Positions 25,434-58,845 of a stretch of DNA of 64,000 nt are shown in pieces (within the stretch, counting starts at the first letter, position 1; each line of letters opens with the position of its first letter). The translations under genes and the position numbers were made by a program. The DNA lies in contig NZ_KI519512.1 of the NCBI RefSeq assembly GCF_000482845.1, positions 1-64,000 of the forward strand, in the 5' to 3' direction. The notes below the pieces were generated by a model. It made no database searches and had not been told where the DNA came from. It saw only the letters and a list, made by a program, of their open reading frames with translations. Source of the stretch: Anaerobiospirillum succiniciproducens DSM 6400. GTDB lineage: Bacteria > Pseudomonadota > Gammaproteobacteria > Enterobacterales > Succinivibrionaceae.

Positions 25434-26380
25434 AAGCCAAACCTAATGCATCAAACTGTATAGCCACATAACCAAGGCTATACAAGCACACAAGGCCTTG
25501 TAAGTAGCCCCAAACTACTTCTACAAGGCCTTTTGTTTATCCGCCCCAAGCAGATACTCTCTTGCCAAGGCACTGCACTCAGCCTATAAAAGGCCACAGC
25601 CTAAGCCTTCTACAAACGCCCTCTTAAGCAAGCAAGGCAACCGCATCATCTACGCATGCCCGCATAGCCTCAGTTTTTGCTTAACAAGCATCGCTAACCT
25701 GCACCCACCTGTATAAGACAAAGACCATAAGCACTGATTAACCGTGTTAAGGCAAGAATTACCAGCGTTTACTGAGCACAGTAAAGATACTCAACAAACT
25801 TTACACAATAGCTAAATTATAATCACCAAATCCAGCACAATATATATTACATAATAGTTGATAAATTTGATATATATGCTGAGCATCAAGCCTTACGTAT
25901 ACTAAGTTAATACGTCGTGGAAGTGTGTGAAAACAAATTTACTTTGATTGAACTTTACCCAAAGTTTCTATCAAATCTATTGTCTTAGCTTCTATTGTTT
26001 AGTTCTAAACGAACTAGAACTGCTTGATTAGCTGGTCAGGTTAGAACCGAGCTCTACGCGCGTTGTGGCCCCATCCGCAACTTATATCATCACCTCTTCT
26101 TTTAACTAACCATCATATTGATCTTTAGTCCATAAGCATTCAATGCCATGGAAAGATTGAGTGTGCTCTGAAATTAGCTTTGTTCTACACAATTAAAATT
26201 ACGCATACCTGCGCCAAATCCTACAAATCGGCCAATAGATGCTTAGCCATAGTCACGATAGAACCATTTATTCGATTTGCCCATGCACTGCCAACGCTTA
26301 AGCAAACGCTCCTCAATACAGTGACATGTAAAAGATAAGCAAATCGTACCCGTGTTATTCGTTAAAACTCTTTGCAAAGA
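25434..26380. other. 0.95-kb gene-free region upstream of the autotransporter
   Basis: It contains the potF terminator at 25491-25540; the remainder is AT-rich leader or promoter sequence. No gene or RNA is recognised. Confidence 0.45.
25491..25540 (+). terminator. Intrinsic terminator after potF-like gene
   Basis: AAGGCCTTGTAAGTAG pairs, with small mismatches, with CTACTTCTACAAGGCCTT around a short loop, followed by TTTGTTT. Confidence 0.8.
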
Positions 26381-29300
26381 ATGAAGCAAACTAACAACGC
26401 CATTAAGTTCTTAATGGCTCAATACCGCGCGATCTTCAAGAACGCCAATATCGCTATGGTAGCCGCCATGGCCGCTGCCGCTTTAGCTGCTGGTCAGGCT
26501 CAGGCTGCAGGCGCAGAGATCGATGTAGCAAAATTTAAAGCTATCGCAGCAAGTGAAGAGGGCTACATCTTAAACGGCAATGATTCTGATCCATATACTA
26601 AGATTAATATCTCTTCTGTAGATCAGGACATTAACAATAAGAACAAATTCACTTTAAACTTAACCGGTGGTGAGCACAAGATTGAAAGCAACGCTGGCAC
26701 CGCAATTGTAGCAGTAACAGCTGAGAACGCTTCCATTAAGGTAAATGGCGATAAAGCTACCTTAAACATTGGCGCAAATGGTTCTGGCGCAACAGTAAAG
26801 CTTGCTTCAATTGATGTTGCACAAGGTACCCTAAATGTTGGCAAAGCTGGTGCAAGTGCCGCAACAACCCTTACTGCTAACACAATTAACCTTGGAACCG
26901 CAGCTACCGGAGAGCAAGCAAAAGCAACTCCGTCAGCAAAGCTCGTAATTGGCCTTAAGAGCACAGTTGGTGGTGATAAAACAACTTTATTCACCGCAAA
27001 CAATGGCGCTGCTATAACTTTAGATGGCGGAGCTAACAAAGATGCAACAATTAAAGCCACTAATATTAAGCTTAATGGGGGCACATTAAGTATTGCAGAT
27101 GGTCAGGGCCTCAAGCTTGATGGCAAAGTTGCTGTAGCTGCGGTTGAAGGCACTGATGCTCAGATTGTTAAGAATGCTGGTGAGCTCACTCTTACTAATA
27201 GCGCAACTTTTGGTAAAGGCTCAATTAAGCAAGAATCAACTGGTAGCATCCAGACTGGCACGGACTTCGACTCCGATCTTTCTTTAACATTTAACGCCGC
27301 TGACTGGAACAACGTCTTTGCAGGCAAAGTTAAAGCTACTTTTAAACAATCAACCAATCATACCTTAGGACTTAATTTCGAAGGTGAGGATAAGGTTGAC
27401 TTAAACAAGGTTCTTGATGCTACATCAGGCGGTATCAAGGACAGCCGTATTACTGCAACAAATGGTGCTTTCTCTGTAACAGCTGAAAATGCCACTTTTG
27501 ATAAGGGCGCAAAAATTGATACAGACAAGGGCAGCTTTGTTTTCAACACCCTTACAGCAGGCACTAGTAATAAGTTTGAGATTACTAAGGGCACTTTAAA
27601 TATCAAAGATAAGCTAGAAGTAGCTGGTGAGAAGACCACTCTCTCAATCTCTGGCGCTAAGGCTACACCTGCAACCCTTACCCTTGACCGTAATGGTGCC
27701 AAGGCTTCAGGCAATGGTTTAGTAGTTGCTGAGACCATTACTCTTAACAGCGATAACATTGCAGGCTCTATTTTAAACGTAGAAAACGGCACTTGGGATG
27801 TTAAGAACCTGACTGTAACCAAGGGTACCGTTAACGTAAAAACAGGTGCAACCTTAGGTATTGATGGAACTTTAACTACTAAAGCTACAGACTCTGTTGT
27901 TAATGTAACTGGCGGCACTTTAGACCTTAACAAGTCTGGCTCTAAGGTAGCTATTGAATCTGCAACAGTTAAGCTTTCCAACACTGGTGTTCTGGAAATT
28001 GGAGCAGATAAGGTTCTCAAGAAGAATGACCAGGGTGCTTATGAGTTAGCTACTGGCTATGCAAAGAACTCTGTATCTGGTGACTCTAGCTCAACCTTAA
28101 AGTTAGTAAGCGCAGCAGACCAGTCTATTGTTGTTGCTGATAAAGCAGCTCTGGATAAGCTTGTTAGTGATATCGGCTTTACTGGCTTAATTTCAGGTAT
28201 TTCTCTTGAAAAGGCTCCTGAAGATGGCGCAACCTTAGATAAGATTAGCGCTAACACAGATGCATTCAAGGACGTACAGGTTAGCGTTGGTAAAGAAGAA
28301 GTTAAGAAAGCATACTCAGTTGACAGTGTTGTTCTGACTGGTGATGCTGAAAAACTTACTTTAAGCAAGGATACATCTGGCAACACCACTGGTAGTGTTA
28401 CCCTCAATGGTCCTAAAAACGGCATGTTCGTTTCTAAGGATGGCAAGGCTGCTGGCGTTTCATTATCTGACGCTGGTGCATCTGTAGTTCTTGCAGGCTC
28501 TGGTAAGATTGGCGCAATTGAGGCATCTGCCGCTGGCAACGGTAAGGTTACTGTTGGTAACCAGGCTGATGGTGGTACCGTTAGTGTTGCAGGTATTGGT
28601 AGCGCAAAAGCTGCTGTTGGTTCTTTAACTGTAAACGATAAAGTAACCCTTAACTCTACTGGTGATATCTCTGTTCAGGACTTTATCTTCAATGGTGACA
28701 AACTTACAGCTACTGAAAAAACCATTACCGTAGGCGGTTCTTCTAAGAAGGTTGAGATCAACGGCTCTATCGATGCTAAGGCATTAGAGGTATCCGCAGA
28801 TCAGACTTCTGTAAGCATCGCCAATGGCGCTATCGTAGATGTTGATTCTTTAACTTTAAAGGGCACCACCAAGGTAACTATTGGTACTGACGGTACTGAT
28901 TCTACTAGCGGCACTTTAGAGGCTGGCAAGCTGACCTTAGCTAAGGGTACCTTATTTGTAGACCCTCAGATTGGTAAGCCAGCTGCAATTGCTGCAGTTA
29001 AGACTCTGTCCAAGACTGAGAGCGATGGCAAGGGCACTGATGCCCAGGTTCTCGATGGTAACATCATCGTAGGCAAGAACTCCGCTGTTGGTGTTGGCTT
29101 CGATACTCGTGCTGAAGTTGAAGATCTCTTAATTCAGTCCAACTACATGGATCCTGTAACTAAGAGCTTCAAGGAAGGCACTGAAGCTTTACAAGCTGCT
29201 TTAATCCTGAACACCCCAATCAAGATCGATAATGGCGCTCAGGTTGTAATTAATGCCAAGGCAGACGTAAATACTGCAGGTACTAACGATCAGTTAGATA

Positions 29301-30703
29301 TTGCAGCTAACTCAGCTCTGGTTATCAATGACTCTGTATTCAGCGTAGGCGCTGATGGCAAGAAGACAGGCACTGCAGTTTCATTTGGTAAGACTGGTGG
29401 TTCAGGTACTGTTTCAGCTGCTAATGGCCAGATTATACTTGCTGGTGACTTCGACGGTGCAGATACTGGCATTCAGATCTTTGGCAATGCCACTGGCGCT
29501 GAGAATGTAAACGTAGTTTCTGCAAACGGCGTATTAAGCGGTAGGCTTGGTGCAAATGGTGCTATTGCTTCATTAACTCCTGACCCAAATAAGCTCAAGG
29601 GCATGTTCACCACTGTCTCTGAGCCAGTTCGCAAGCTGTTACAGGAACGTGTTGCTAACCAGAACAATGCTTTCGATAAGTCACAGCTCGGTGCTCAGTT
29701 CTTAGGCTCTGTTACTAACGATCCAAAGGATCTTTCTGGTGTTAAGGCTGACGCTGCTGCTCACGCTGCAACCTACGCTGGCGCTCAGCAGGCTGCTGTT
29801 GCCTCTGTAACCACCATGGCTGACGCTATGTTTGGTCGTGTTGGTGCAGTTGGTGTTGAGGCTGCCTCTATTGCTGCTACCGGTTCACAGGCTAACGGCG
29901 GTGTATGGTTAACCCCAATGTACAAGTCTGTTGATGCTGACGGCTTCAACGCTCAAGGTGCATCCTACGGTTCAGAAGTTGACTTAGCTGGTGTTGCTTT
30001 CGGTACCGATACTGTAAACGGCAACATGCGCTTCGGTGCTGTCTTTAACATCGGTTCTGGTGATGCAGACGGCAAAGGCAACGGTAACGGCTTAAAGGAC
30101 GAGTTTGATTACTACGGCTTTGGCATTTACTCAGCTATGGGCTTTGGCAACTTTGCTTTAGTTGGTGACGCTTCCTTAACCGTAATTTCACACGACGTTA
30201 AGGGCTTCGACCTCCATGGCAAGGCAGACACTAAGGCTGTAACCATGGGCTTAACTGGCCAGTACACCTTTGCTACCCCAGCTGTTGACGTAACCCCACA
30301 CTTAGGTGCTCGTTTCGTTCGTCTGGACACCGAGTCATACGACCTGAACTCAGCTAAAGGCACTATCGCTACTACTGACTTTGACGTTCAGAACGTATTC
30401 TCTGTACCAGTTGGCGTAACCTTATCTAAGGCTTTTGTTGCTGGCGGCTGGTCATTAGCTCCTAACGCTGATCTGACCTTAACCTTCAACTCTGGCGACA
30501 CCGAGGCTAAGTCCACTACCACCTTCACTGGTGCTCGTGCTATTGACCTCAATTCCGAGGTTATGGACGAAGTTACCTACGGTGTAACCTTAGGCTTAGG
30601 CGCTCAGTACGGTGCATTTGGTACCTCCTTTGGCATCAACTACACTGGTTCTGAGAACACCGATGCATTCGGCGTAAACGCTCAGTGCCGTTACATGTTC
30701 TAA
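26381..30703 (+). CDS. Autotransporter (type Va) with beta-helix-like passenger
   Basis: A 1,440-residue outer-membrane or secreted protein. It has an extended signal sequence whose hydrophobic, Ala-rich core (MVAAMAAAALAAGQAQA) ends near residue 46. A passenger of about 1,080 residues is Gly/Thr/Asn/Lys/Val-rich with many short beta-strand-like repeats (for example GTLNV, GTVNV, GTLDL), consistent with a beta-helix. The C-terminal beta-barrel covers roughly residues 1130-1440 and ends in Tyr-Met-Phe, the outer-membrane signature. The passenger has no Cys; the only Cys I see is seven residues from the end. ATG 26381 was chosen over a TTG at 26372. Function (adhesion, biofilm or enzymatic) cannot be told: no protease triad or known adhesin domain stands out. 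Two terminators in tandem follow. Confidence 0.9.
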   Translation: MKQTNNAIKFLMAQYRAIFKNANIAMVAAMAAAALAAGQAQAAGAEIDVAKFKAIAASEEGYILNGNDSDPYTKINISSVDQDINNKNKFTLNLTGGEHKIESNAGTAIVAVTAENASIKVNGDKATLNIGANGSGATVKLASIDVAQGTLNVGKAGASAATTLTANTINLGTAATGEQAKATPSAKLVIGLKSTVGGDKTTLFTANNGAAITLDGGANKDATIKATNIKLNGGTLSIADGQGLKLDGKVAVAAVEGTDAQIVKNAGELTLTNSATFGKGSIKQESTGSIQTGTDFDSDLSLTFNAADWNNVFAGKVKATFKQSTNHTLGLNFEGEDKVDLNKVLDATSGGIKDSRITATNGAFSVTAENATFDKGAKIDTDKGSFVFNTLTAGTSNKFEITKGTLNIKDKLEVAGEKTTLSISGAKATPATLTLDRNGAKASGNGLVVAETITLNSDNIAGSILNVENGTWDVKNLTVTKGTVNVKTGATLGIDGTLTTKATDSVVNVTGGTLDLNKSGSKVAIESATVKLSNTGVLEIGADKVLKKNDQGAYELATGYAKNSVSGDSSSTLKLVSAADQSIVVADKAALDKLVSDIGFTGLISGISLEKAPEDGATLDKISANTDAFKDVQVSVGKEEVKKAYSVDSVVLTGDAEKLTLSKDTSGNTTGSVTLNGPKNGMFVSKDGKAAGVSLSDAGASVVLAGSGKIGAIEASAAGNGKVTVGNQADGGTVSVAGIGSAKAAVGSLTVNDKVTLNSTGDISVQDFIFNGDKLTATEKTITVGGSSKKVEINGSIDAKALEVSADQTSVSIANGAIVDVDSLTLKGTTKVTIGTDGTDSTSGTLEAGKLTLAKGTLFVDPQIGKPAAIAAVKTLSKTESDGKGTDAQVLDGNIIVGKNSAVGVGFDTRAEVEDLLIQSNYMDPVTKSFKEGTEALQAALILNTPIKIDNGAQVVINAKADVNTAGTNDQLDIAANSALVINDSVFSVGADGKKTGTAVSFGKTGGSGTVSAANGQIILAGDFDGADTGIQIFGNATGAENVNVVSANGVLSGRLGANGAIASLTPDPNKLKGMFTTVSEPVRKLLQERVANQNNAFDKSQLGAQFLGSVTNDPKDLSGVKADAAAHAATYAGAQQAAVASVTTMADAMFGRVGAVGVEAASIAATGSQANGGVWLTPMYKSVDADGFNAQGASYGSEVDLAGVAFGTDTVNGNMRFGAVFNIGSGDADGKGNGNGLKDEFDYYGFGIYSAMGFGNFALVGDASLTVISHDVKGFDLHGKADTKAVTMGLTGQYTFATPAVDVTPHLGARFVRLDTESYDLNSAKGTIATTDFDVQNVFSVPVGVTLSKAFVAGGWSLAPNADLTLTFNSGDTEAKSTTTFTGARAIDLNSEVMDEVTYGVTLGLGAQYGAFGTSFGINYTGSENTDAFGVNAQCRYMF

Positions 30704-37131: not shown

Positions 37132-40100
37132 CTACTTAGCGCCAAGCTGACTTTCATTTGGCTCGCTGACATACAGTTCGATGGAGGCATTGGCGATATC
37201 CTCGCCGATCATACGCATGAGCTTGCTTAAACCATCAAGCTTAGTCAGATTTTGTCTTTCTTTTGCGATAGCCTCTTGCAGCGCAAAACGTGCCTCAATG
37301 ATTGGAGCACCACGAGGTATTTGTGGCTCGGTTACCACATCAAGTGCAATGGCATGACCAAGCTCGCTCTCAAAGCGCTGACGGGCATCATCCCAGAAGT
37401 TGTGGGCAATATATCCCCAGTCTGACTTCTCATCTAAAACTAAGAACCAATGGTTCTCATCATTTGGATCAATACGTCTTTCAGCGCCAGTTAAGATGGA
37501 GAAGTATGGGCCGCCCTCAGGATAGACCTTCTTTAAGAAAGCATACCAAGGATCCTTTGACTCTAAAGTCTCTAAGAAATCATCTTCGACCATGAGTCTC
37601 TTGCCTGGCATCTTAAAGGAATGGGCCTTAGTAGGAACAGCCGGCATATTACTGCCTACCACCTCAGTTGGGGTTAGTGCAGCACCATATGAGTCTAACG
37701 CGGCTTCGGCTGCATCAAACATTGGCCCCATATCCATGGATGCGCCGCCACCATCTACACCAAAGGTAGCATCATCAAAGTAATCATCATCTGAGCCCAT
37801 GTTGCTAGCAGCAGCAACTGCAGCCATGTTAATAGAGGCACTAGACTCATAGAAGTCATCATCAGCGGCAATATAATCTGGACGCTGACCAAAGTCGTAA
37901 TTGTCCTGATGCCCCTGATTGAAATTGCCATTACCTTGACCCTGACCTTGTCCCATCTGTCCCTGGCTTTGGTTATAGTTTTGACCATTACCAAAGTTTT
38001 GACCATTCCCCTGCCCCATCTGACCTTGTATTGGAGGCATGCCTTGTGGGCCACTTACAAACTGATTGCCTTGAGGTGCATGGCCATTGCCAAAGTTTTG
38101 TCCATTGCCTGGAGCCATCTGACCAGCCATTTGGCCAGGCATCTGGTTAGACATTTGGCCGTTCATCTGGCCTTGAATTTGAGCAGAAGCTTGGTTTGGC
38201 ATTGGTGACTGAGTCTGGCCTGGCATTGGAGGCTGCTGCACTGGGGCTACGTTAGCTTGCTGGGCAGGAGCCTTGATTTGCTCTTGATTTGGAGCTTGTC
38301 CTTGTGGTGTGGATGGTTCAACTTCCTTAGGTAAGGTGCTCTCAAGTGCACTATTAGAACGAGCTAATAAGCGCAAGAGATCAGTGTGTGGCTTGGTGTA
38401 GTCTTGACCCTGAGCCTTGAGTGCTTCGATACGCTCTGAGCAAGCCTTAGCCATGTCGTGATCAAATTGCATGAGGTTTCTTTCATCGGCCTCACACGCA
38501 CTTAAGTACTGCTCTACAGTGCCATTTTCTTGAGCAAAGTCGTGCTTTTCGCCGAAGAAAGGATTGATCTCACCATTAAAGATACGAGCTTTACGGCCAC
38601 TATGGGCTTTATCACTATCTAAAAGGAAGTTGCTATCACTTAATTGCATGAGAGCAGTCTTTGGCGGACGATTGAGCTTAATATCCGTACCATTAACATT
38701 GATAACTGTTACGGAGGCAAGATTGTCCCATGGTGATGGTTGATTACCACCGCTAAGCTCAATTTCTCTTTCTACCTTATCGCCAAAAGAGTTAAGCAGA
38801 TCTAAAGCTGACGCTGCTTGCTTTTGCTCTAAGGCCTTTCGCTCATCCTCGCTACGGGCTGACTTGATAGCTGCAGTAGCTTTTTCAAAGTCAGAAGCAG
38901 CTGCCTGCATCTTCTTTTGGCTATCTTGAGCCTGGGCATCATTGCTTATATCGCCGGTAGTTAAAGCTGTAGCATTGACATTGAGAGTGCCGGCATGACC
39001 TTGATCTGAGGCAATAACGGCACCGCCTTCAACAGCGCCTTCAGCCTCATTAGCTAAAGACATGGCCATCTTGTCTAAAGATGCAATGCTGCCATTATTT
39101 GCTGAAACAGCTGCACTAGCTGTGCTTACATTGCTAAGGCCTAGTCCATTATCAACAGCATTTGCAGTGTTTGATAAAACAGCTCCGCCTAAAGCTTTAT
39201 CTCCCACGGCTTTGCTATTGCCATTATTATCAGTACTAGTAACTGCACCAGATAAGCTGTTAGTGAAGATATGAGCATGCTCATTTACTACAGGGCCATT
39301 ATCCTGCTTTGACAGATCTGCAGCCTGAGGTAGCGCATCAGAGCCTTTTAGCTTTCTAAAGCGCTTCATCTCCTCTTCAGTTAAGTCCCAAGGTGGCAGA
39401 TCTTCATCATTGATGAGACTATCTGTGGCTGCACCACCTCTAAGTGCAGTGCCATCTTGAGATACATTAGCTGCACTATCATCAGCTTGGAGTGCCCCAC
39501 TGAGCAATGAGCCCACATTGGCATCTTGCTTATCATTTAAAGTCAGATCATCACTAGCTTTTTTACTCTCTGACTTGCCTGAAAGGATCTGAGCAGCAGG
39601 AGTGAGATCACCATGGTTTGGAATAAAGTCAGTACCCATGATGTCATCGATGCTTAGATCATCACCATGACCCTCAACCTCAGCAAGCGATGAGACCATA
39701 GCTGCTAAAGAGTTATTAGCCTGCTTAGATAAGGCAACACCTTCAGTACCTGCCGCTAAAGATAAACTTGCTTGAGCAGAAGCATCACTTACCTTTTTAA
39801 CTTCATCGCCACCATCGTTTGAAGCGCTATCAAGCACTGCTGTGCTATCGGCACTTGCCTGCCCAGCTGCATTATCTGTTGCTTGCTGTGCAGCTGTGTT
39901 AGTAGATGCTTGATCAGCTGTGTTAGTAGATGCTTGCTCAGCACTTTGAGCTGTATTTGGATCAGATGCGCTAGCAGCGCCCTGCTCTGCTGCTTGGGCT
40001 GCTACAGACGCTAAGCTATCAAGAGGACTTGGAGTGTGGCCCTGATTAGTTGTTGCGCTTGCATTTGCGTTTGCAGCATCGCTTTGATTTTGAGCAGAAG

Positions 40101-41904
40101 CGTTAGAACTATCAGCCACATTAGATGAGCCCATGGAGGCAAATGGCGATGCATCTGCAGCTGCCACATTTGTATCTGTAGCACTGCTAGTTGCTGCAGA
40201 GGTACCGTTTGCAGTGGCTAAATTAGCTGCTGCGTTAGTGGATGCGGCATTAGCATCAGTGGAGCTAAGCTGTGGTGGAGCTGGAGGCGCTTCAAAGCTA
40301 CCGCCAGGAGCAATCGAGCTATCGTTGTTGCTAAGCGAGATCGATGATACTAATTGAGCGCCTAAATGACGTGGATCATTTACATCATAGCCATGCGCAT
40401 CTTGCTGGACAAAAGCAAAGTCCTCAACTGCATCATCAGTATTTGGCGCAGTGCTTTGCTCAGTTGAGGCAGATGCTGTAGATGACTGAGCACCTTGAGG
40501 TAGTGAGAGCTTATCCATGAGCATTTGCATGATGGATGGGCTTGGCTTAGCGCTGTCATTGAGCTTGAGTGCATCCTCATTAGATGCAGCAGCATCAACA
40601 GGCACACCACTAGCCTTACTTTGCTGGAAGCTTTGAATACCAGCAATGACATTATTTAAAGCATTGAGCTCATACTTGGTGTCGTGCTGATTACCTTTAT
40701 GGCTATCTGCAGAAATCTCTGCCTCTTTAGCCACTAAGAATCTTAAGTATTCTCGGACGCGTGGGACTAAGGAGGTGAACAAGGCTCGATCAGATCGAAT
40801 TGCTGACCACTCAGACTCAGGATCAAAGGTCGGAATCTGGCTAGCAAGCTGCTCAGATAAGAGACTAGATCTGCCTTGCTTGCGGATCTCGTCCATGGTG
40901 TTATCAGAGCTTGAGAATGCATAGCGCTCATCAGTGGACACCTTCTTGCGTCCATCAAAGGTACCAAGCTGAGTATGACCCTCGGCCATGCCGTTAGATG
41001 CAACAGCAGATGCACTAGCTGCGCTGCTTTGTACGGCTTGGCTTGCATCCATGCCACTAGAGGCTTGTGTAGATTGGGCCAAGCTTGATGCGTTGTCAGC
41101 TCCATTTAAAGCAGCTTGATTTTGCTGTTTAGTACTTTGCTCTAGAGCAAGAGCGGCTCTTTGACCTGAAGTTGGCAGAGTAAAGCCTTCACGCATACCG
41201 CCATCTGGTCCTTTGCCCTCAAAGGTATTCTCTTTTGGATAGGCAAAATCAGTGTTTGGAGTATGGCTATTGTCCTGTGAGGCAGTGTTTAGGCTAGCAG
41301 GCAAAGATGCACGCATGGAAGCAAGCTTCTGCTGTTCTTGCAAGGTACGCTGCTGTACCTTTAACAGATGCTCTTTGGCCTCAGAAACTTGCTTTTTAGA
41401 TGCAGAAAGCTTCTGAGCTAAAGCCATAATCTCAGCTAACTGAGCATCATTAAGACCTAACTCTGAGCACAGTGAGTTAACACAATTTTGTACCGCACTA
41501 TCACCAAACTCTACAGCCTCAAGTAAGCGCTTGATATCGCCCTCACCAAGACCACGTAATAAAGGCACAAATGGTACTGGCGCGGCAGATGCCGAAGCTT
41601 GTGCAGTGCCACTGTTGGCTACATTGGATGCAACCTCTGCTTTTATGGCTGCAGCTTGATTTTTAAGCTGATTGAGCGCACCGCTAATGTCAGTCTTCTT
41701 GGTGCGCGAGTAGAGATTTGCAAGCTCCGATAAAGGATCAGATAAGGCAGGATCTGAGTTTTGAATAGACGCAACTGCACTAGCGCCACCTGCTAATGAA
41801 GCAGTTGAGGCGCTTGTTGTATTGAAGCCTTCTGGATAGATCTTGGCAACAAGCAAAGAGAGCTTGTCAGTCTTTACGCTGTTTGACTCGCCTCTAAAGA
41901 GTTT
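37132..41904 (-). CDS. dnaX: dnaX -1 frame: tau-specific C-terminal extension (domain V plus giant linker)
   Basis: About 1,590 codons, open in the -1 frame relative to dnaX and beginning exactly at the A10 run. A TGA in this frame sits immediately upstream of the run, and no ATG or ribosome-binding site occurs near the start, so entry by frameshift from dnaX is the only obvious route. Early residues include a helical, coiled-coil-like part (about 150-200 codons in). Then come about 1,100 residues of Ala/Ser/Asn/Asp/Gln low complexity and a Met/Gln/Gly/Asn-rich stretch at about 37880-38235 with GQM repeats. The last about 170 residues are folded-looking: 'KDPWYAFLKKVYPEG', a Trp-containing strand, ARQRFESELGHAIALDVV and 'EAIAKERQNLTKL'. 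This resembles tau domain V, which binds the polymerase alpha subunit. Family resemblance there is by pattern, not a database search. Confidence 0.75.
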   Translation of the reverse strand, partial: KLFRGESNSVKTDKLSLLVAKIYPEGFNTTSASTASLAGGASAVASIQNSDPALSDPLSELANLYSRTKKTDISGALNQLKNQAAAIKAEVASNVANSGTAQASASAAPVPFVPLLRGLGEGDIKRLLEAVEFGDSAVQNCVNSLCSELGLNDAQLAEIMALAQKLSASKKQVSEAKEHLLKVQQRTLQEQQKLASMRASLPASLNTASQDNSHTPNTDFAYPKENTFEGKGPDGGMREGFTLPTSGQRAALALEQSTKQQNQAALNGADNASSLAQSTQASSGMDASQAVQSSAASASAVASNGMAEGHTQLGTFDGRKKVSTDERYAFSSSDNTMDEIRKQGRSSLLSEQLASQIPTFDPESEWSAIRSDRALFTSLVPRVREYLRFLVAKEAEISADSHKGNQHDTKYELNALNNVIAGIQSFQQSKASGVPVDAAASNEDALKLNDSAKPSPSIMQMLMDKLSLPQGAQSSTASASTEQSTAPNTDDAVEDFAFVQQDAHGYDVNDPRHLGAQLVSSISLSNNDSSIAPGGSFEAPPAPPQLSSTDANAASTNAAANLATANGTSAATSSATDTNVAAADASPFASMGSSNVADSSNASAQNQSDAANANASATTNQGHTPSPLDSLASVAAQAAEQGAASASDPNTAQSAEQASTNTADQASTNTAAQQATDNAAGQASADSTAVLDSASNDGGDEVKKVSDASAQASLSLAAGTEGVALSKQANNSLAAMVSSLAEVEGHGDDLSIDDIMGTDFIPNHGDLTPAAQILSGKSESKKASDDLTLNDKQDANVGSLLSGALQADDSAANVSQDGTALRGGAATDSLINDEDLPPWDLTEEEMKRFRKLKGSDALPQAADLSKQDNGPVVNEHAHIFTNSLSGAVTSTDNNGNSKAVGDKALGGAVLSNTANAVDNGLGLSNVSTASAAVSANNGSIASLDKMAMSLANEAEGAVEGGAVIASDQGHAGTLNVNATALTTGDISNDAQAQDSQKKMQAAASDFEKATAAIKSARSEDERKALEQKQAASALDLLNSFGDKVEREIELSGGNQPSPWDNLASVTVINVNGTDIKLNRPPKTALMQLSDSNFLLDSDKAHSGRKARIFNGEINPFFGEKHDFAQENGTVEQYLSACEADERNLMQFDHDMAKACSERIEALKAQGQDYTKPHTDLLRLLARSNSALESTLPKEVEPSTPQGQAPNQEQIKAPAQQANVAPVQQPPMPGQTQSPMPNQASAQIQGQMNGQMSNQMPGQMAGQMAPGNGQNFGNGHAPQGNQFVSGPQGMPPIQGQMGQGNGQNFGNGQNYNQSQGQMGQGQGQGNGNFNQGHQDNYDFGQRPDYIAADDDFYESSASINMAAVAAASNMGSDDDYFDDATFGVDGGGASMDMGPMFDAAEAALDSYGAALTPTEVVGSNMPAVPTKAHSFKMPGKRLMVEDDFLETLESKDPWYAFLKKVYPEGGPYFSILTGAERRIDPNDENHWFLVLDEKSDWGYIAHNFWDDARQRFESELGHAIALDVVTEPQIPRGAPIIEARFALQEAIAKERQNLTKLDGLSKLMRMIGEDIANASIELYVSEPNESQLGAK

Positions 41905-43031
41905 TTTTTTTCAGGTGTAAAGGCAAGCAGGCGTAATAAGGTCATCTCAAATGCAGAACGACCATCGGCTGCATACTGATACTCTTGTACACCCTCAAGT
42001 ACGATTTGATAGTACAGCTGAATCTGCTCAGGACGCATGCGGGAAGCGTAAGTACGCAGCATTGAGGTACCAAAAGAGAATACCTCAAGCTTAGTGTCGC
42101 CAATGAGCTGGAATAAAGCTAAATCGTGGAAAGCGATCACCAGCTCATCAAGCAGGCTCTTGTAGTTTGGAGCCTTGGAGCGAATGCTTTCGAGCAGAGT
42201 AGCAAATGCAGTTGGAGTTTGAGCGTTTGGATCAGACTTTACTGATAAGAGCTCAAAGATTTCCTGAATTAGAGCATCACCCACAGTGCCTAACATGGAC
42301 TGTACGGACTGGCTGGTTAATGAACCATTACCAAGAGCAATGGCTTGATCGCATAAAGATAAAGCATCACGCATAGAGCCACGGGCTGCACGAGCCAGGG
42401 CAGTTAAAGCCTCTGCTTCGTATGTAATGCTCTCTTTAGTACAGATCTTAGTGAGCTGTCCAATAATCTCATCTGTGTTCAAAGAACGCAGACGGAACTG
42501 CAGACAACGTGAGAGTACTGTTGTTGGGATCTTATGCGGATCAGTGGTAGCTAAGATGAATTTGACGTATGCAGGTGGCTCTTCAAGAGTCTTTAACAGC
42601 GCGTTAAAGCTTGAAGTAGTGAGCATGTGCACTTCGTCAATGATGTAGATCTTATAGCGACCATTGATAGGTGGGTAATGAGTATTTTCAAGGAGCTGAC
42701 GAGTGTCATCTACCTTAGTCTGAGAGGCAGCATCGATTTCGATTACATCAGGGAAGTTGCCTTCAGTAATGCCTTCACACGCATCGCATTTACCACATGG
42801 ATGAGAGCTTACACCCTCACGGCATTGCAAAGCCTTAGCAAAGATACGCGCAATGGTGGTCTTACCGATACCGCGAGTACCAGTAAGTAAATAGGCATGG
42901 TGAGTGCGTCCAGCATCGATAGAATGAGAGACAGCTTTTAGAACGTGCTCCTGACCGACCACATCCTCAAACACCTGAGGACGATACTTACGGGCTAAAG
43001 CAAGATACTCACCGCCAAGGTCGATAGCCAT
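41874..43031 (-). CDS. dnaX: DNA polymerase III clamp-loader subunit gamma (DnaX, unshifted frame)
   Basis: The AAA+ ATPase of the clamp loader that opens and loads the beta sliding clamp. The 385 residues correspond to domains I-III. Walker A GTRGIGKTT is at about 51-59, the zinc-binding set CREGVSSHPCGKCDAC follows, then the DEVHM Walker B and the SRC sensor/arginine finger. The frame stops nine codons after an A10 run, giving a gamma-length product directly. Tau would need a -1 shift at the run into the next feature. ATG 43031 has AAGGA six bases upstream. The order apt then dnaX is the same as in E. coli, which supports the identification. In E. coli the roles of the frames are reversed: 0 frame tau, -1 frame gamma. 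Confidence 0.96.
   Translation of the reverse strand: MAIDLGGEYLALARKYRPQVFEDVVGQEHVLKAVSHSIDAGRTHHAYLLTGTRGIGKTTIARIFAKALQCREGVSSHPCGKCDACEGITEGNFPDVIEIDAASQTKVDDTRQLLENTHYPPINGRYKIYIIDEVHMLTTSSFNALLKTLEEPPAYVKFILATTDPHKIPTTVLSRCLQFRLRSLNTDEIIGQLTKICTKESITYEAEALTALARAARGSMRDALSLCDQAIALGNGSLTSQSVQSMLGTVGDALIQEIFELLSVKSDPNAQTPTAFATLLESIRSKAPNYKSLLDELVIAFHDLALFQLIGDTKLEVFSFGTSMLRTYASRMRPEQIQLYYQIVLEGVQEYQYAADGRSAFEMTLLRLLAFTPEKKNSLEASQTA
41902..41911 (-). promoter_or_regulatory. dnaX: A10 slippage site for gamma/tau production
   Basis: The mRNA-sense context is CCT GAA AAA AAA AAC TCT in the 0 frame. The 0 frame stops after nine more codons. A +1 shift reaches TAG after two codons (ACT CTT TAG). 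Only the -1 frame (AAA CTC TTT AGA) stays open. A run of ten A can support RNA-polymerase slippage (as with the A9 of Thermus dnaX) or ribosomal -1 slippage on tandem AAA codons. Only a small CTCT-TT-AGAG stem follows, and no upstream Shine-Dalgarno-like stimulator is obvious, so transcriptional slippage is somewhat favoured. A sequencing error in the homopolymer remains the alternative. Confidence 0.75.
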
Positions 43032-43225: not shown

Positions 43226-43798
43226 CTAGTGACCTGGGAAGTCCATCAGGCTAACGCAATCAACACCGCACTCTTGTTTGATCTTATCATAGCCACCTAA
43301 ATCGACCAAATTGATAACGAATGCAGCCTTAACTACTTCAGCACCACACTTTTGAGCTAATTTGCAAGTGGCAATCATAGTACCACCAGTAGCTAACAGA
43401 TCGTCTATGCATAAAACACGATCGCCCTTGTTTACAGAGTTAGTGTGGATATGCAGCTCGTCGGTACCATACTCAAGAGCGTACTCTTCTTTAATAGTCT
43501 CGCGAGGTAACTTGCCCTTCTTGCGTACCATAACAAAACCAGCGCCTAAACGCTCAGCTAAAGGTGCACCGAAGACAAAACCACGAGCCTCAGAGGAGAG
43601 CACTTTGTCAATCTTCTGATCTTTGAAGATTTCATAGAACATGTCAGTGACCATTTTAAAGGCCTTACCGTTCTCACATAAGGTGGTAATGTCACGGAAT
43701 AAGATACCCTTAATTGGGTAGTCCTGAATGCTAGTAATAGTAGACTTTAAAAACTCGACCTTGTTGTCGTAATCTGCAATAGTCTCAGACAAGTTCAT
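43226..43798 (-). CDS. apt: Adenine phosphoribosyltransferase
   Basis: A cytoplasmic purine-salvage enzyme: adenine + PRPP gives AMP + PPi. The PRPP-binding loop VLCIDDLLATGGTM is at about residues 122-135, and GILFRDITTL and SEARGFVFG earlier in the chain are typical of Apt. ATG 43798 gives 190 residues, close to the family length. An in-frame upstream start at 43825 would add a short hydrophobic leader not expected for Apt. It precedes dnaX on the same strand with a gap of about 195 bases, the conserved gammaproteobacterial apt-dnaX order, so some cotranscription is plausible. Confidence 0.95.
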   Translation of the reverse strand: MNLSETIADYDNKVEFLKSTITSIQDYPIKGILFRDITTLCENGKAFKMVTDMFYEIFKDQKIDKVLSSEARGFVFGAPLAERLGAGFVMVRKKGKLPRETIKEEYALEYGTDELHIHTNSVNKGDRVLCIDDLLATGGTMIATCKLAQKCGAEVVKAAFVINLVDLGGYDKIKQECGVDCVSLMDFPGH

Positions 43799-44616
43799 GA
43801 AATTCACCAAAATCAATAATACCAATCAGATCTCTTGTAACCACAAGGCATGCTAAAAAGCACAATTATCCACTCAAGGCAAAGGCTCATGCAAAACAGG
43901 CTAGACCTTAAAAAGGCAAAGCCATATCCTCAAGAACATCAAGACAGTGCTTTATCCATAGCAGTACTTGTAGTTAGAGCAAGAAAGCAGCGGCGCATAT
44001 TATACCCTTTACTTACGCTTTCTTTACGACCATAGATCACATCGCTGCAAAATCCGATAAATATCGTGTTATCGACACACACATCTTGCTATAACTCAAA
44101 ATATAACAAGAAACATATCTGAGCAATGGAGCTAATCCCCATTGAGATGCCTATTTATAGCCACAGGTGCACTTGTTTACCAGCTAGCCTATCAAGTAAA
44201 CAGCTGGTCTTTTAGTCAAAACGTAAGGTTGGTTTACAAACCTTTTAACCATCAAAACTGATAACTTAGCCTGATTAACATTGTTTTGCTTGTTATGGGG
44301 CGGTAAGTTTGGCACAATCGGACAATCACTTATTAACAGTGATGGGATTTATAGCTTGATGCGACAGAGACTAGCTTTTTGTCTACTTATGGCTATGAAG
44401 TTTCGTGTACCGGGCACACATCAATAGCCACCAACTTAAGACCAAGCACATCACCTTGTAGATTGACTTTCAGATCTACTAATCTTGATGTTTGCAATGG
44501 AACAGCTTGAGAGCTGTTTAGCTGATGCTGTCATTTTTTATGAGGCAGTGTCTTGTCTTGGTTGACTTCTGGTGGTCTGATAATTTGAGTGTGCGACTGA
44601 CTACGGATGTTTGCTG
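43799..44616. other. 0.8-kb divergent intergenic region between apt and speA
   Basis: It should contain the promoters for both directions. No gene, repeat or riboswitch-like structure was recognised. A 61-codon frame at 43850 is not supported. Confidence 0.45.
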
Positions 44617-55661: not shown

Positions 55662-58628
55662 TTAGCTATGAAGCTCATCATAGATTTGTTCGGCCATCTT
55701 TGGACTGATGCCAGGGACTTTCTTGAGCTCATCAATGCCAGCACGCAATACCTCTTGCATGCCGCCTAAGTGCTTTAATATAGCCTGACGACGCTTTGGA
55801 CCTACTCCTGCAATGCTTTCAAGCTTGGAAGTCCGTCTTGCTTTAGCGCGGCGATTTCTGTGTCCTGTAATGGCAAAGCGATGGGACTCATCTCGAATAT
55901 GGATCACCAACTGCAAGGCTGGTGAATTTAGAGTGAGATTAATGCGCTCGTGACTAAAGGCTCTAATAAGAGTCTCAAGACCTTCCTTTCTACCCTCTCC
56001 CTTGGCAACAGCTACTATGGTTGGCATTGGTGTCTTAGCATTAGCAAAGGCATTAGAGATTACCTCCTCAGCCTGGGATAACTGACCTGGGCCACCATCA
56101 ATAAAGACAAGCTGCGGACATTCACCACCATCAGGATCTTTAAAGCGCCTTGTTAGCACCTGATGCATAGCCGCAAAGTCATCTCCAGGAGTGATACCAT
56201 CGATATTGAACCTGCGATAGCGAGAACTATCTGGGCCTTCTCGATTAAACACTACGCACGAGGCTACAGTAAGCTCACCTTGAGTATGGGAAATGTCATA
56301 ACACTCCATACGCTCAACGCCACTAATGCCAAGCAAGCTCTCTAGTTCTTTAATACGATGCTCTGCAGTGGCAAATGACTGCACCTTAGCACTAAGAGCT
56401 ACAGACGCGTTAGTCATGGCTAGACGTACAAAACGATGCTTAGCACCTCGCACGCCACGGGTGAAGCGTACATTCTTATCAAACTGTTTCTTAAGCGCCT
56501 CTTTGAGTACGCTCAGCTCGTCTTTGAGCACTACAGCGCCCGCACCATCGACGGAAGTGTCATCGACAGCATCGCCTGTATCGGCTGTGTTGGCTGCATC
56601 GCCTTTATCGGTTGTATCGGCTGCATCGATGCATGATGTGTGGGCATCATCTGTTTCCTCTGCTTGTTGCTCTGAGATCGTAAGATGTGGTGTTTTGGTG
56701 TCTTTGTCCGAGTGCTCGTCGGTGAGGTATTCTTCTTCAAGATCAAGCGCATCTACAACATCATCATGGAGCTTACCTTGCAGGCGATCGTGGCGCTCTT
56801 GTGGATCGATATTGTCCATGGCCTTGATCTCTGCAACGAGGCTCTTTGCGCCAGCAATACGCTCGTCTTTATCCCCTGGCACGATGGACTGCTGCATACG
56901 ACGGGATCTTGAGGATACCTGTCCTGGTTTTAAGTTCTCAGACTCATCGCTACCAGCATTAGCATCTGCGCTAATTAGATCACTTGTTACGCCATCTTGT
57001 CCTGTCTCATCATCTGCTGCATTTACGGCATTGAAATCAAGATCAATTACCACCTCATCAGGGATAAGGTTGCTGTGAGTATCATTAAGATAGAAACGGC
57101 TTAAGAACGATAAGACGAGCTCAGTATTATTTCTAACTTCGCTTGTGAGCTTTGGAAAGAACGAGCGAGTTCCAAAGATGCGGCCATTTCGGATAAAGAG
57201 CACGTGGATACAGGCCATACCCTCTGCCATAGCAAAGCCAATGACATCTAATGGATACTCGATACCCGAGACAATACTATTAGCCTCTTGTACCTTTCTA
57301 AGCGAGGTAAGCTGATCTCTAAGCGCTGCGGCCTCTTCAAACTCCATACGTGCAGCATGCTCTTCCATCTTTTTAACAATAGCGCTCAAGAGCTCTTGAT
57401 TGTGGCCTTGTAAGAAAAGTTTAACGAGCTCTACTTGCTCAGCATACTGTGCCTGTTTTTCTTTAGACATAGGCACGCAAGGAGCTAAGCACTTACCAAT
57501 TTGAGCCATGAGACAAGGTCTAGAGCGATGAGCATAGACGGTATCTTCACATTGACGAATTGGAAAGAGCTGCAGCATGAGTCTAAGGCTGTCTTTTACT
57601 GCAGATGAATCCGGGAATGGGCCAAAGTATTCACCGGCTTTACGGCGTGCTCCACGGTGGTAGTAAATACCTGGATGCTCATGCTGAGAGGTAAGCAAGA
57701 TATACGGGTATGACTTATCATCTCGCAGCAAGATGTTAAAGTGCGGCTGATACTTCTTAATGAGCTCATTTTCAAGAATCAAAGCCTCACTTTCAGAGAA
57801 GGTAACAGTAAACTCAATATGAGCAATATGCGAGACTAAAACCCTGGTCTTAACGCCTTGATCTTGCTTTAAGAAATAAGAGCTTAAACGCTTCTTAAGA
57901 TCTTTAGCCTTGCCTACATAGATGACCTGATTGCGCAGGTCATACATGCGATAACAACCAGGACGATTTGGTACTGTCTTTAAGAAAGCCTTGCTATCAA
58001 AAAGCTCTGCACTACCATCCTCATCTACCTTGGCACCCTCAACTTGTCCTTGGATTTCGGCGTCAGCCATATCCATTTGAGGCTCAGCTACATCTGATCC
58101 AAAGCCTGCTTTATGGGCATCGTCATAGTTGCCATCTTCATCAGGAGCAAACTGAATGGATCTTCCAGCCCCGCGTAACTGACGCTCTTTAATTTTGCTA
58201 ATCTCGTAGGCAATACGACTCTTATTGCGATTACCAAAGATTTCATCTTCAGTTGCGCTCTCGAGATCATCAAAGCCATCCTCAAGGTCATCGCTTAATG
58301 GGCTATCAAGGTCTTCCTCTAAGGCATCCTCAAGGTTATTGCTTAATGAGCTATCAAGGTCATCCTCTAAGGACTCATCAAGCTCGTTTATCGAGGAGCT
58401 CTCGAGATCTTCTAATTCATCGTCATCATCAAGATCTGCGGCATAAGCACCAATACCAATCTCCTTAGCTGCACAAGCAATAGCATCTAAGGTTGTATCT
58501 GTTGCTTTGCTGTCTTTATCCTCCACTTGAGCGTTAGCAAGCGTAGCATTAACTGCTTGTGACTTTGCAGAGCTCTGAGTTGTGGATGCTAATTTAGCTT
58601 TAGATTTATTTGATGATGTGCGTGGCAC
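55662..58628 (-). CDS. uvrC: UvrABC excinuclease subunit C with large acidic extension and insertion
   Basis: The nuclease of nucleotide-excision repair, making both incisions with UvrB. Homology starts only near residue 215 with the GIY-YIG domain (NRPGCYRMYD, VIYVGKAKDLKKRL). The UvrB-binding UVR motif follows (about 410-440), then the RNase-H-like endonuclease domain (CYDISHTQGE, FIDGGPGQL), and the C-terminal double helix-hairpin-helix (IAGVGPKRR, VPGISPKMAEQIY). At 988 residues it is about 380 longer than typical UvrC. The extra lies in an N-terminal region of about 210 residues with Asp/Glu/Leu/Ser repeats (LEDDLDSSLS, LEEDLDSPLS) and an insertion of about 170 residues between the UVR and RNase H parts. 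GTG 58628 was chosen because CAGGA lies six bases upstream; a TTG at 58652 is an alternative. Confidence 0.95.
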   Translation of the reverse strand: MPRTSSNKSKAKLASTTQSSAKSQAVNATLANAQVEDKDSKATDTTLDAIACAAKEIGIGAYAADLDDDDELEDLESSSINELDESLEDDLDSSLSNNLEDALEEDLDSPLSDDLEDGFDDLESATEDEIFGNRNKSRIAYEISKIKERQLRGAGRSIQFAPDEDGNYDDAHKAGFGSDVAEPQMDMADAEIQGQVEGAKVDEDGSAELFDSKAFLKTVPNRPGCYRMYDLRNQVIYVGKAKDLKKRLSSYFLKQDQGVKTRVLVSHIAHIEFTVTFSESEALILENELIKKYQPHFNILLRDDKSYPYILLTSQHEHPGIYYHRGARRKAGEYFGPFPDSSAVKDSLRLMLQLFPIRQCEDTVYAHRSRPCLMAQIGKCLAPCVPMSKEKQAQYAEQVELVKLFLQGHNQELLSAIVKKMEEHAARMEFEEAAALRDQLTSLRKVQEANSIVSGIEYPLDVIGFAMAEGMACIHVLFIRNGRIFGTRSFFPKLTSEVRNNTELVLSFLSRFYLNDTHSNLIPDEVVIDLDFNAVNAADDETGQDGVTSDLISADANAGSDESENLKPGQVSSRSRRMQQSIVPGDKDERIAGAKSLVAEIKAMDNIDPQERHDRLQGKLHDDVVDALDLEEEYLTDEHSDKDTKTPHLTISEQQAEETDDAHTSCIDAADTTDKGDAANTADTGDAVDDTSVDGAGAVVLKDELSVLKEALKKQFDKNVRFTRGVRGAKHRFVRLAMTNASVALSAKVQSFATAEHRIKELESLLGISGVERMECYDISHTQGELTVASCVVFNREGPDSSRYRRFNIDGITPGDDFAAMHQVLTRRFKDPDGGECPQLVFIDGGPGQLSQAEEVISNAFANAKTPMPTIVAVAKGEGRKEGLETLIRAFSHERINLTLNSPALQLVIHIRDESHRFAITGHRNRRAKARRTSKLESIAGVGPKRRQAILKHLGGMQEVLRAGIDELKKVPGISPKMAEQIYDELHS

Positions 58629-58845
58629 GGCTAGTCCTGTTAATTGCTCCAAAAGGTGGCTACAGTCTATCAGGATTAATGGTCGATAACACGTACAATG
58701 CGATCTTGTCTTGTTTAGTGCCTAGCTATGAGTGCAGTTGGCTTACAGTGCTGGATTTCGGGCGGGAGTAAAGTTCTGGATTTAGCGCTGGATTTAGCGC
58801 TGGAGTAAGGTAATTACTTTAGTGGTGGGAATTTTGATAAGGCAA

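Follow-up and report, generated by a model that had tools for sequence, protein, structure and literature searches.

In Escherichia coli, dnaX yields two products: frame 0 encodes tau, and a -1 ribosomal shift on A_AAA_AAG, in the presence of a Shine-Dalgarno sequence and a hairpin, gives gamma. Thermus thermophilus reaches the same two products by another route, transcriptional slippage on an A9 run, which results in 50% gamma (PMC1088944). There too the unslipped template frame is tau, both other frames stop quickly, and ribosomal stimulators were not found. The opposite arrangement has been known since 2013. In the main text of Antonov et al. 2013 (PMC3711429), a GeneTack cluster of 17 genes from 12 genera, nine of them with A10, has a frame 0 that ends as gamma and a -1 shift at the poly-A run (mostly A10) that gives tau; transcriptional realignment is proposed there, and Chlorobium and Chloroherpeton are described besides. 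Atkins et al. 2016 (PMC5009743) discuss reversed dnaX genes and point out that, at an efficiency near 50%, the two products can swap roles through a change of a single base. Two further systems are related in mechanism. Shigella mxiE also needs a non-templated base, added by transcriptional slippage, for its long product (PMC1088944), and the tau of Blochmannia depends on slippage at a frameshifted poly-A tract (PMC3017870).

Here, we describe the dnaX locus in a stretch of 64,000 nucleotides of Anaerobiospirillum succiniciproducens DSM 6400 (contig NZ_KI519512.1, positions 1 to 64,000), hereafter the window, and compare it with dnaX genes of the Succinivibrionaceae and beyond. The PEP carboxykinase encoded in this genome matches PDB 1YTM, the A. 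succiniciproducens enzyme, with identity at all 469 residues compared, which agrees with an origin in this species or a very close relative and hence in this family. The locus resembles the type of Antonov et al. in its two ORFs, its frame-0 stop after a poly-A run, its tau ORF in frame -1 and the domain V homologue at the end of the latter. Their main text names no member of the Succinivibrionaceae; here, a whole family retains the layout, which comes with silent-site evidence and reversions. Like Thermus dnaX, the gene has an A run in the range of 9-10, quick stops in both non-tau frames and no ribosomal stimulators that we could find, but the template frame gives gamma instead of tau. The E. 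coli gene shares the two products, the A-rich lysine codons after domain III and, probably, the upstream apt, whereas in the window the shifted product would be tau. The mxiE gene is unrelated and encodes a transcription activator, not a core replication protein, and the Blochmannia tract lies inside the tau region of a reduced genome, whereas the run described here is conserved and sits at the gamma/tau border. Apparently new are the conservation across the family, the three returns to ordinary logic and the lineage that carries the tau tail as a separate gene: we did not find the family-wide history, the silent-site evidence or the split lineage in the literature searched.

Reading frames and domains of the locus

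The dnaX gene lies on the minus strand and opens with an ATG at 43031. Translation of its frame 0 (41874-43031) gives a gamma of 385 residues comprising domains I-III, which matches DNA_pol3_delta2, DNAX_ATPase_lid and DNA_pol3_gamma3 in Pfam and TIGR02397 in NCBIfam (426 bits) and, judged by these matches, is a normal gamma. The predicted slippage site is a run of ten A at 41902-41911 (minus strand), from which frame 0 reads GAA AAA AAA AAC TCT TTA GAG GCG AGT CAA ACA GCG TAA. The earlier note had placed the frame-0 stop nine codons past this run, and a second reading of the sequence found this exact to the base (TAA at 41874-41876, minus strand). It had also described a TGA in frame -1 directly before the run, which is present at 41911-41913 (minus strand) and therefore closes the tau frame to entry from upstream. 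After the run, the same frame is open for 1,590 codons, as claimed, forming a tau-specific extension (37132-41910, minus strand) with its stop at 37134-37132. A +1 shift was said to meet a TAG within two codons; it does so at 41894-41896 (minus strand), two codons past the run, so that the +1 reading also ends as gamma. Joined to the -1 frame, gamma would become a product of 1,966 aa, against an earlier estimate of about 1,965. This is very large compared with the 643 residues of E. coli tau (the length of 8GJ0_B).

Most of the extension is a very long linker of low complexity, rich in Ala, Ser, Gln, Asn and Gly and without a Pfam domain (37615-41901, minus strand), and no known domain was found between domains III and V of tau. 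The frame after the run spans about 1,200-1,590 codons in the genus of the window and about 490-1,060 in most other genera. The last 160 residues (37135-37614, minus strand) correspond to domain V. Pfam and NCBIfam scans of the single window sequence did not detect this domain, so that the Pfam match suggested earlier failed for the sequence itself and held for part of its relatives, since PF12170 was matched in 7 of 31. A profile built from 31 species of the family and compared with the PDB retrieved 5FKU_E (E=5.6e-6), 8GJ0_B (3.8e-5) and 2AYA_A (6.4e-4), with E. coli tau aligned over nearly the whole domain. The AlphaFold2 model of the domain is confident (pLDDT 93.5), and its top three Foldseek hits are all E. 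coli tau (5fku_E, with a TMt of 0.76, 5fkv_E and 2aya). The profile and the model together show that the C-terminus of the -1 frame is a genuine homologue of tau domain V, as had been suspected, and this homology answers the objection that the frame might encode an unrelated separate protein. By analogy with E. coli, the domain would bind polymerase alpha.

The A10 run of dnaX is more than a chance occurrence. Ten copies of A10 exist in the 3.8 Mb genome, and only the one in dnaX lies inside a long sense frame, with 376 open codons upstream; the other copies have fewer than 90 sense codons and the longest antisense frame has 125. We conclude this both because the copy is the sole one in such a frame and because 42 dnaX genes in the family show that frame relation.

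Upstream lies a phosphoribosyltransferase gene, probably apt (43226-43825, minus strand), and the order apt-dnaX, given this probable identity, is that of E. coli K-12. Elsewhere in the window, a UvrC of 996 aa (55662-58652, minus strand) is longer than expected for this protein, and likely carries a large insertion, since the two stretches that match UvrC RNase H (468-541 and 774-928) are far apart. An ORF of 1,443 aa (26372-30703, plus strand) had no Pfam domain. An Rfam search returned no match in the window.

The gamma/tau border across the Succinivibrionaceae

The border was inspected in 53 dnaX genes from the family, the window and 52 others. The reversed layout, with a frame-0 stop soon after the A run and a long frame -1, was found in 42 of them, from 11 genera; in two of these 42 the -1 frame is still open where the contig ends. 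The earlier note had proposed that related genomes be inspected for an out-of-frame run and that the unshifted frame gives gamma and the slipped one tau. The first expectation was borne out by these counts, and the second draws support from the sequence and from the strong family-wide comparison. All 42 genes have tau in frame -1. Their runs are A10 in 34 genes, A9 in five, and A11, A13 and A7 in one each, which makes at least nine A in 41 of the 42. Stops follow mostly within 1-3 codons in frame 0 (up to 13) and within 1-6 codons in frame +1 (up to 15); the window, with nine and two codons, falls within these ranges.

The remaining genes differ in layout. In seven, from two outer genera, frame 0 encodes tau and the border lacks a run of 8 or more. 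Four others are organised the E. coli way round, their frame 0 continuing into the tau-side frame and their -1 frame stopping at once: G056 (A8), G017 (A12), and G001 and G008 (both CGA followed by A10). Mapped onto the gamma tree, reversal requires four changes, for example one gain and three independent losses. Four genomes (G039, G040, G041 and G043) gave no strong dnaX match, and three of these are 87-92% complete; their dnaX may be on lost contigs or may be very divergent.

Synonymous codon usage around the run adds a further line of evidence. The species of the family are related, so the counts that follow are not independent, and the columns used for comparison share that relatedness. 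In all 42 reversed genes the two full lysine codons of the run are AAA, against a gene average of 38%, and the codon before the run ends in A (GAA in 26/26 vs 40%, CAA in 4/4 vs 24%). The run is thus preserved by silent codon choice. After it, 25 genes encode a [W/F][I/L] motif in the tau frame, and the I/L codon of this motif is NTA in every one (16 ATA, 7 CTA and 2 TTA, with ATA used for 16/16 Ile), which places a TAG in frame 0. Among 59 other conserved I/L columns of the same species, the best reaches an NTA frequency of 0.64, and ATA stays at or below 0.19 in other conserved Ile columns. The next glycine is GGT in 20 of 23 genes, compared with at most 0.64 in other Gly columns, and this choice places a TGA in frame +1. 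These biases point clearly to selection on the termination of gamma in frame 0, and probably also on termination in frame +1.

The source of the shift

Our preferred explanation, which we regard as likely, is that of a two-product dnaX with reversed logic, where slippage at A10 is mainly the work of RNA polymerase. Unslipped transcription and translation would stop at the frame-0 TAA and give gamma as the default product, and a one-base shift at A10 would join the -1 frame and give full-length tau. If RNA polymerase slips on the run, transcripts with A11 would encode tau, and those with A9, A10, A12 or A13 products of gamma length. The parts of this explanation differ in strength. That tau is made by recoding at the run seems almost certain; that transcription rather than the ribosome is the main source of the slippage is probable, to a slightly lesser degree than the explanation as a whole. 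The sequences establish the frames, domain V, the conserved layout and the selection at silent sites; the slippage itself, its transcriptional nature and a requirement for tau like that of E. coli are what we infer.

The same reversed logic could be served by ribosomes that shift by -1 on A_AAA_AAA or A_AAA_AAG, a reading that we find rather unlikely and that nevertheless has several points in its favour. An in-phase A_AAA_AAN heptamer occurs in every run, and the 26 of 42 reversed runs that end in AAG contain the heptamer of E. coli. The run of the window ends in AAC; it contains A_AAA_AAA, lacks A_AAA_AAG, and offers a last codon that makes for a poorer bacterial site. A ribosomal shift needs a run of 7, and transcriptional slippage is favoured because the runs are kept longer than this at both ends. 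Stops in frame +1, such as the TGA created by GGT, point the same way, since they are needless for a ribosomal -1 shift and suit transcripts with A9 or A12. Stimulators of a ribosomal shift were not found either. There was no Shine-Dalgarno signal upstream of the run across the family (mean percentile 0.82) and no conserved downstream hairpin by simple folding, which is blind to pseudoknots (mean z -0.43, mean percentile 0.42), although the same tests recovered both in the E. coli K-12 dnaX control (percentiles 0.009 and 0.03, respectively). Stable downstream structures do occur in a few species (L048, L051). Without a stimulator, heptamers in E. coli shift at 2.1-10 times a background of 0.055% (PMC4066793), which is weak.

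One argument against RNA polymerase is that all 42 reversed genes need the -1 direction, and the main text of Antonov et al. 2013 (PMC3711429) takes a single shift direction as a sign of ribosomal frameshifting. This argument is tempered by the small number of independent origins. One gene, G045 (L057), has only A7, with an in-phase A_AAA_AAA heptamer, and A7 is too short for known transcriptional slippage. Chlorobium, too, is named by Atkins et al. 2016 (PMC5009743) as a candidate for ribosomal decoding with stimulators.

Slippage at the run, by RNA polymerase above all, also has to be weighed against explanations that dispense with recoding. Gamma and the tau tail might be two separately translated proteins, the latter with its own start, as the congeners G001 and G008 carry the tail as an ORF of its own with a Shine-Dalgarno-like site and a GTG start. 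In the reversed genes, by contrast, no conserved start or ribosome site follows the run, the first possible start being 6 to 262 codons further on, and the tau frame shows conservation of both the run and the residues right after it, which makes this reading very improbable. An error of sequencing or assembly, or else one genuine frameshift mutation, could be suspected at any homopolymer, these being error-prone, and the genome of the window is an assembly of 155 contigs. We give this almost no credence: the out-of-frame relation is shared by the assemblies of 42 species, including a one-contig genome (G031), and silent sites are under selection for the frame-0 stop. The reversed layout in 42 of the 53 dnaX genes rules out sequencing error for the family, and the miscounted homopolymer that the earlier note had raised against its own reading thereby fails as an objection. 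Finally, run length does evolve (A12 in G017, A13 in G012, A11 in G007), as it would if changes in the DNA switched tau between cells by phase variation. We consider this highly doubtful, since the run is exactly A10 in 34 of 42 species, its length changes keep tau reachable, and the loss of tau should be lethal, as expected from E. coli.

Split genes, distant relatives and the meaning of reversal

In two genomes of the same genus, G001 (L041) and G008 (L040), the frame at the run is the ordinary one and dnaX frame 0 continues for about 100 codons before it ends. A spacer of about 180-320 bases separates this end from the tail, which includes domain V and forms an ORF of 1,542-1,565 codons with a GTG start and AGAGGA eight bases upstream. 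Third-position changes dominate most of this ORF, and no second strong dnaX match was seen in either genome. Judging from these sequences, the case looks like a gene fission of tau. We rejected the idea that the insert is a repeated element, because it is single-copy in each genome, and an Rfam search of the two split loci gave no match.

Outside the family, an order sample of 139 genomes brought up a single genus (g20) of another family (f7), where the A run is present in 8/8 genomes read (L180, L181, L183-L188). Three of these are reversed, all with A10, and five have tau in frame 0, four with A10 and one with A9 (G142). In yet another family of the same class, G233 (L198) has a reversed border at A11, followed by a -1 frame of about 211 codons and then ybaB and recR, and would represent an independent reversed dnaX. 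The class sample, in which 131 genomes gave a match, contained no clear reversed case besides this one. Given f7 in the order sample and G233 as the only case in the class sample, the reversed state appears to be rare, to have arisen more than once and to have become fixed in few groups.

Other dnaX matches with short frames in the order and class were examined and set apart from these cases. G115 lacks a long -1 frame. In the tiny genomes G079 and G100 no A run marks the border where the gamma-length frame ends, and a -1 frame of 367-425 codons begins 86-158 bases after this end. The short frames of G262, G267 and G306 are contig ends, and G192 has a gamma-only dnaX followed by recR. The dnaX of G141 (L195) switches frame within a GCAGAACAA repeat downstream of domain III, which may reflect repeat slippage or an assembly error. 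G133 has an A7 near the border.

Whether the decoding logic of dnaX is truly fluid within one family, ordinary, then reversed, then ordinary again or split into two genes, is to us an evenly balanced matter. The proposed reason is equally balanced: if the A run caused slippage in a large fraction of readings, the default could be either of the two products. Should slippage be so efficient, RNA polymerase would, by slipping, determine the ratio of gamma to tau in the replisome. Nature has replicated one site within the family, with runs from A7 to A13, reversed and ordinary logic and one split lineage, and these cases can test the idea of Atkins et al. 2016 that slippage near 50% lets one base swap the default product. 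There is also a practical consequence for genome annotation: automatic gene finders will tend to annotate no more than a gamma and an orphan tail, and tau will therefore look missing. In these gut bacteria, the protein linking the polymerases with the clamp loader would seem to arise only by way of a decoding 'error'.
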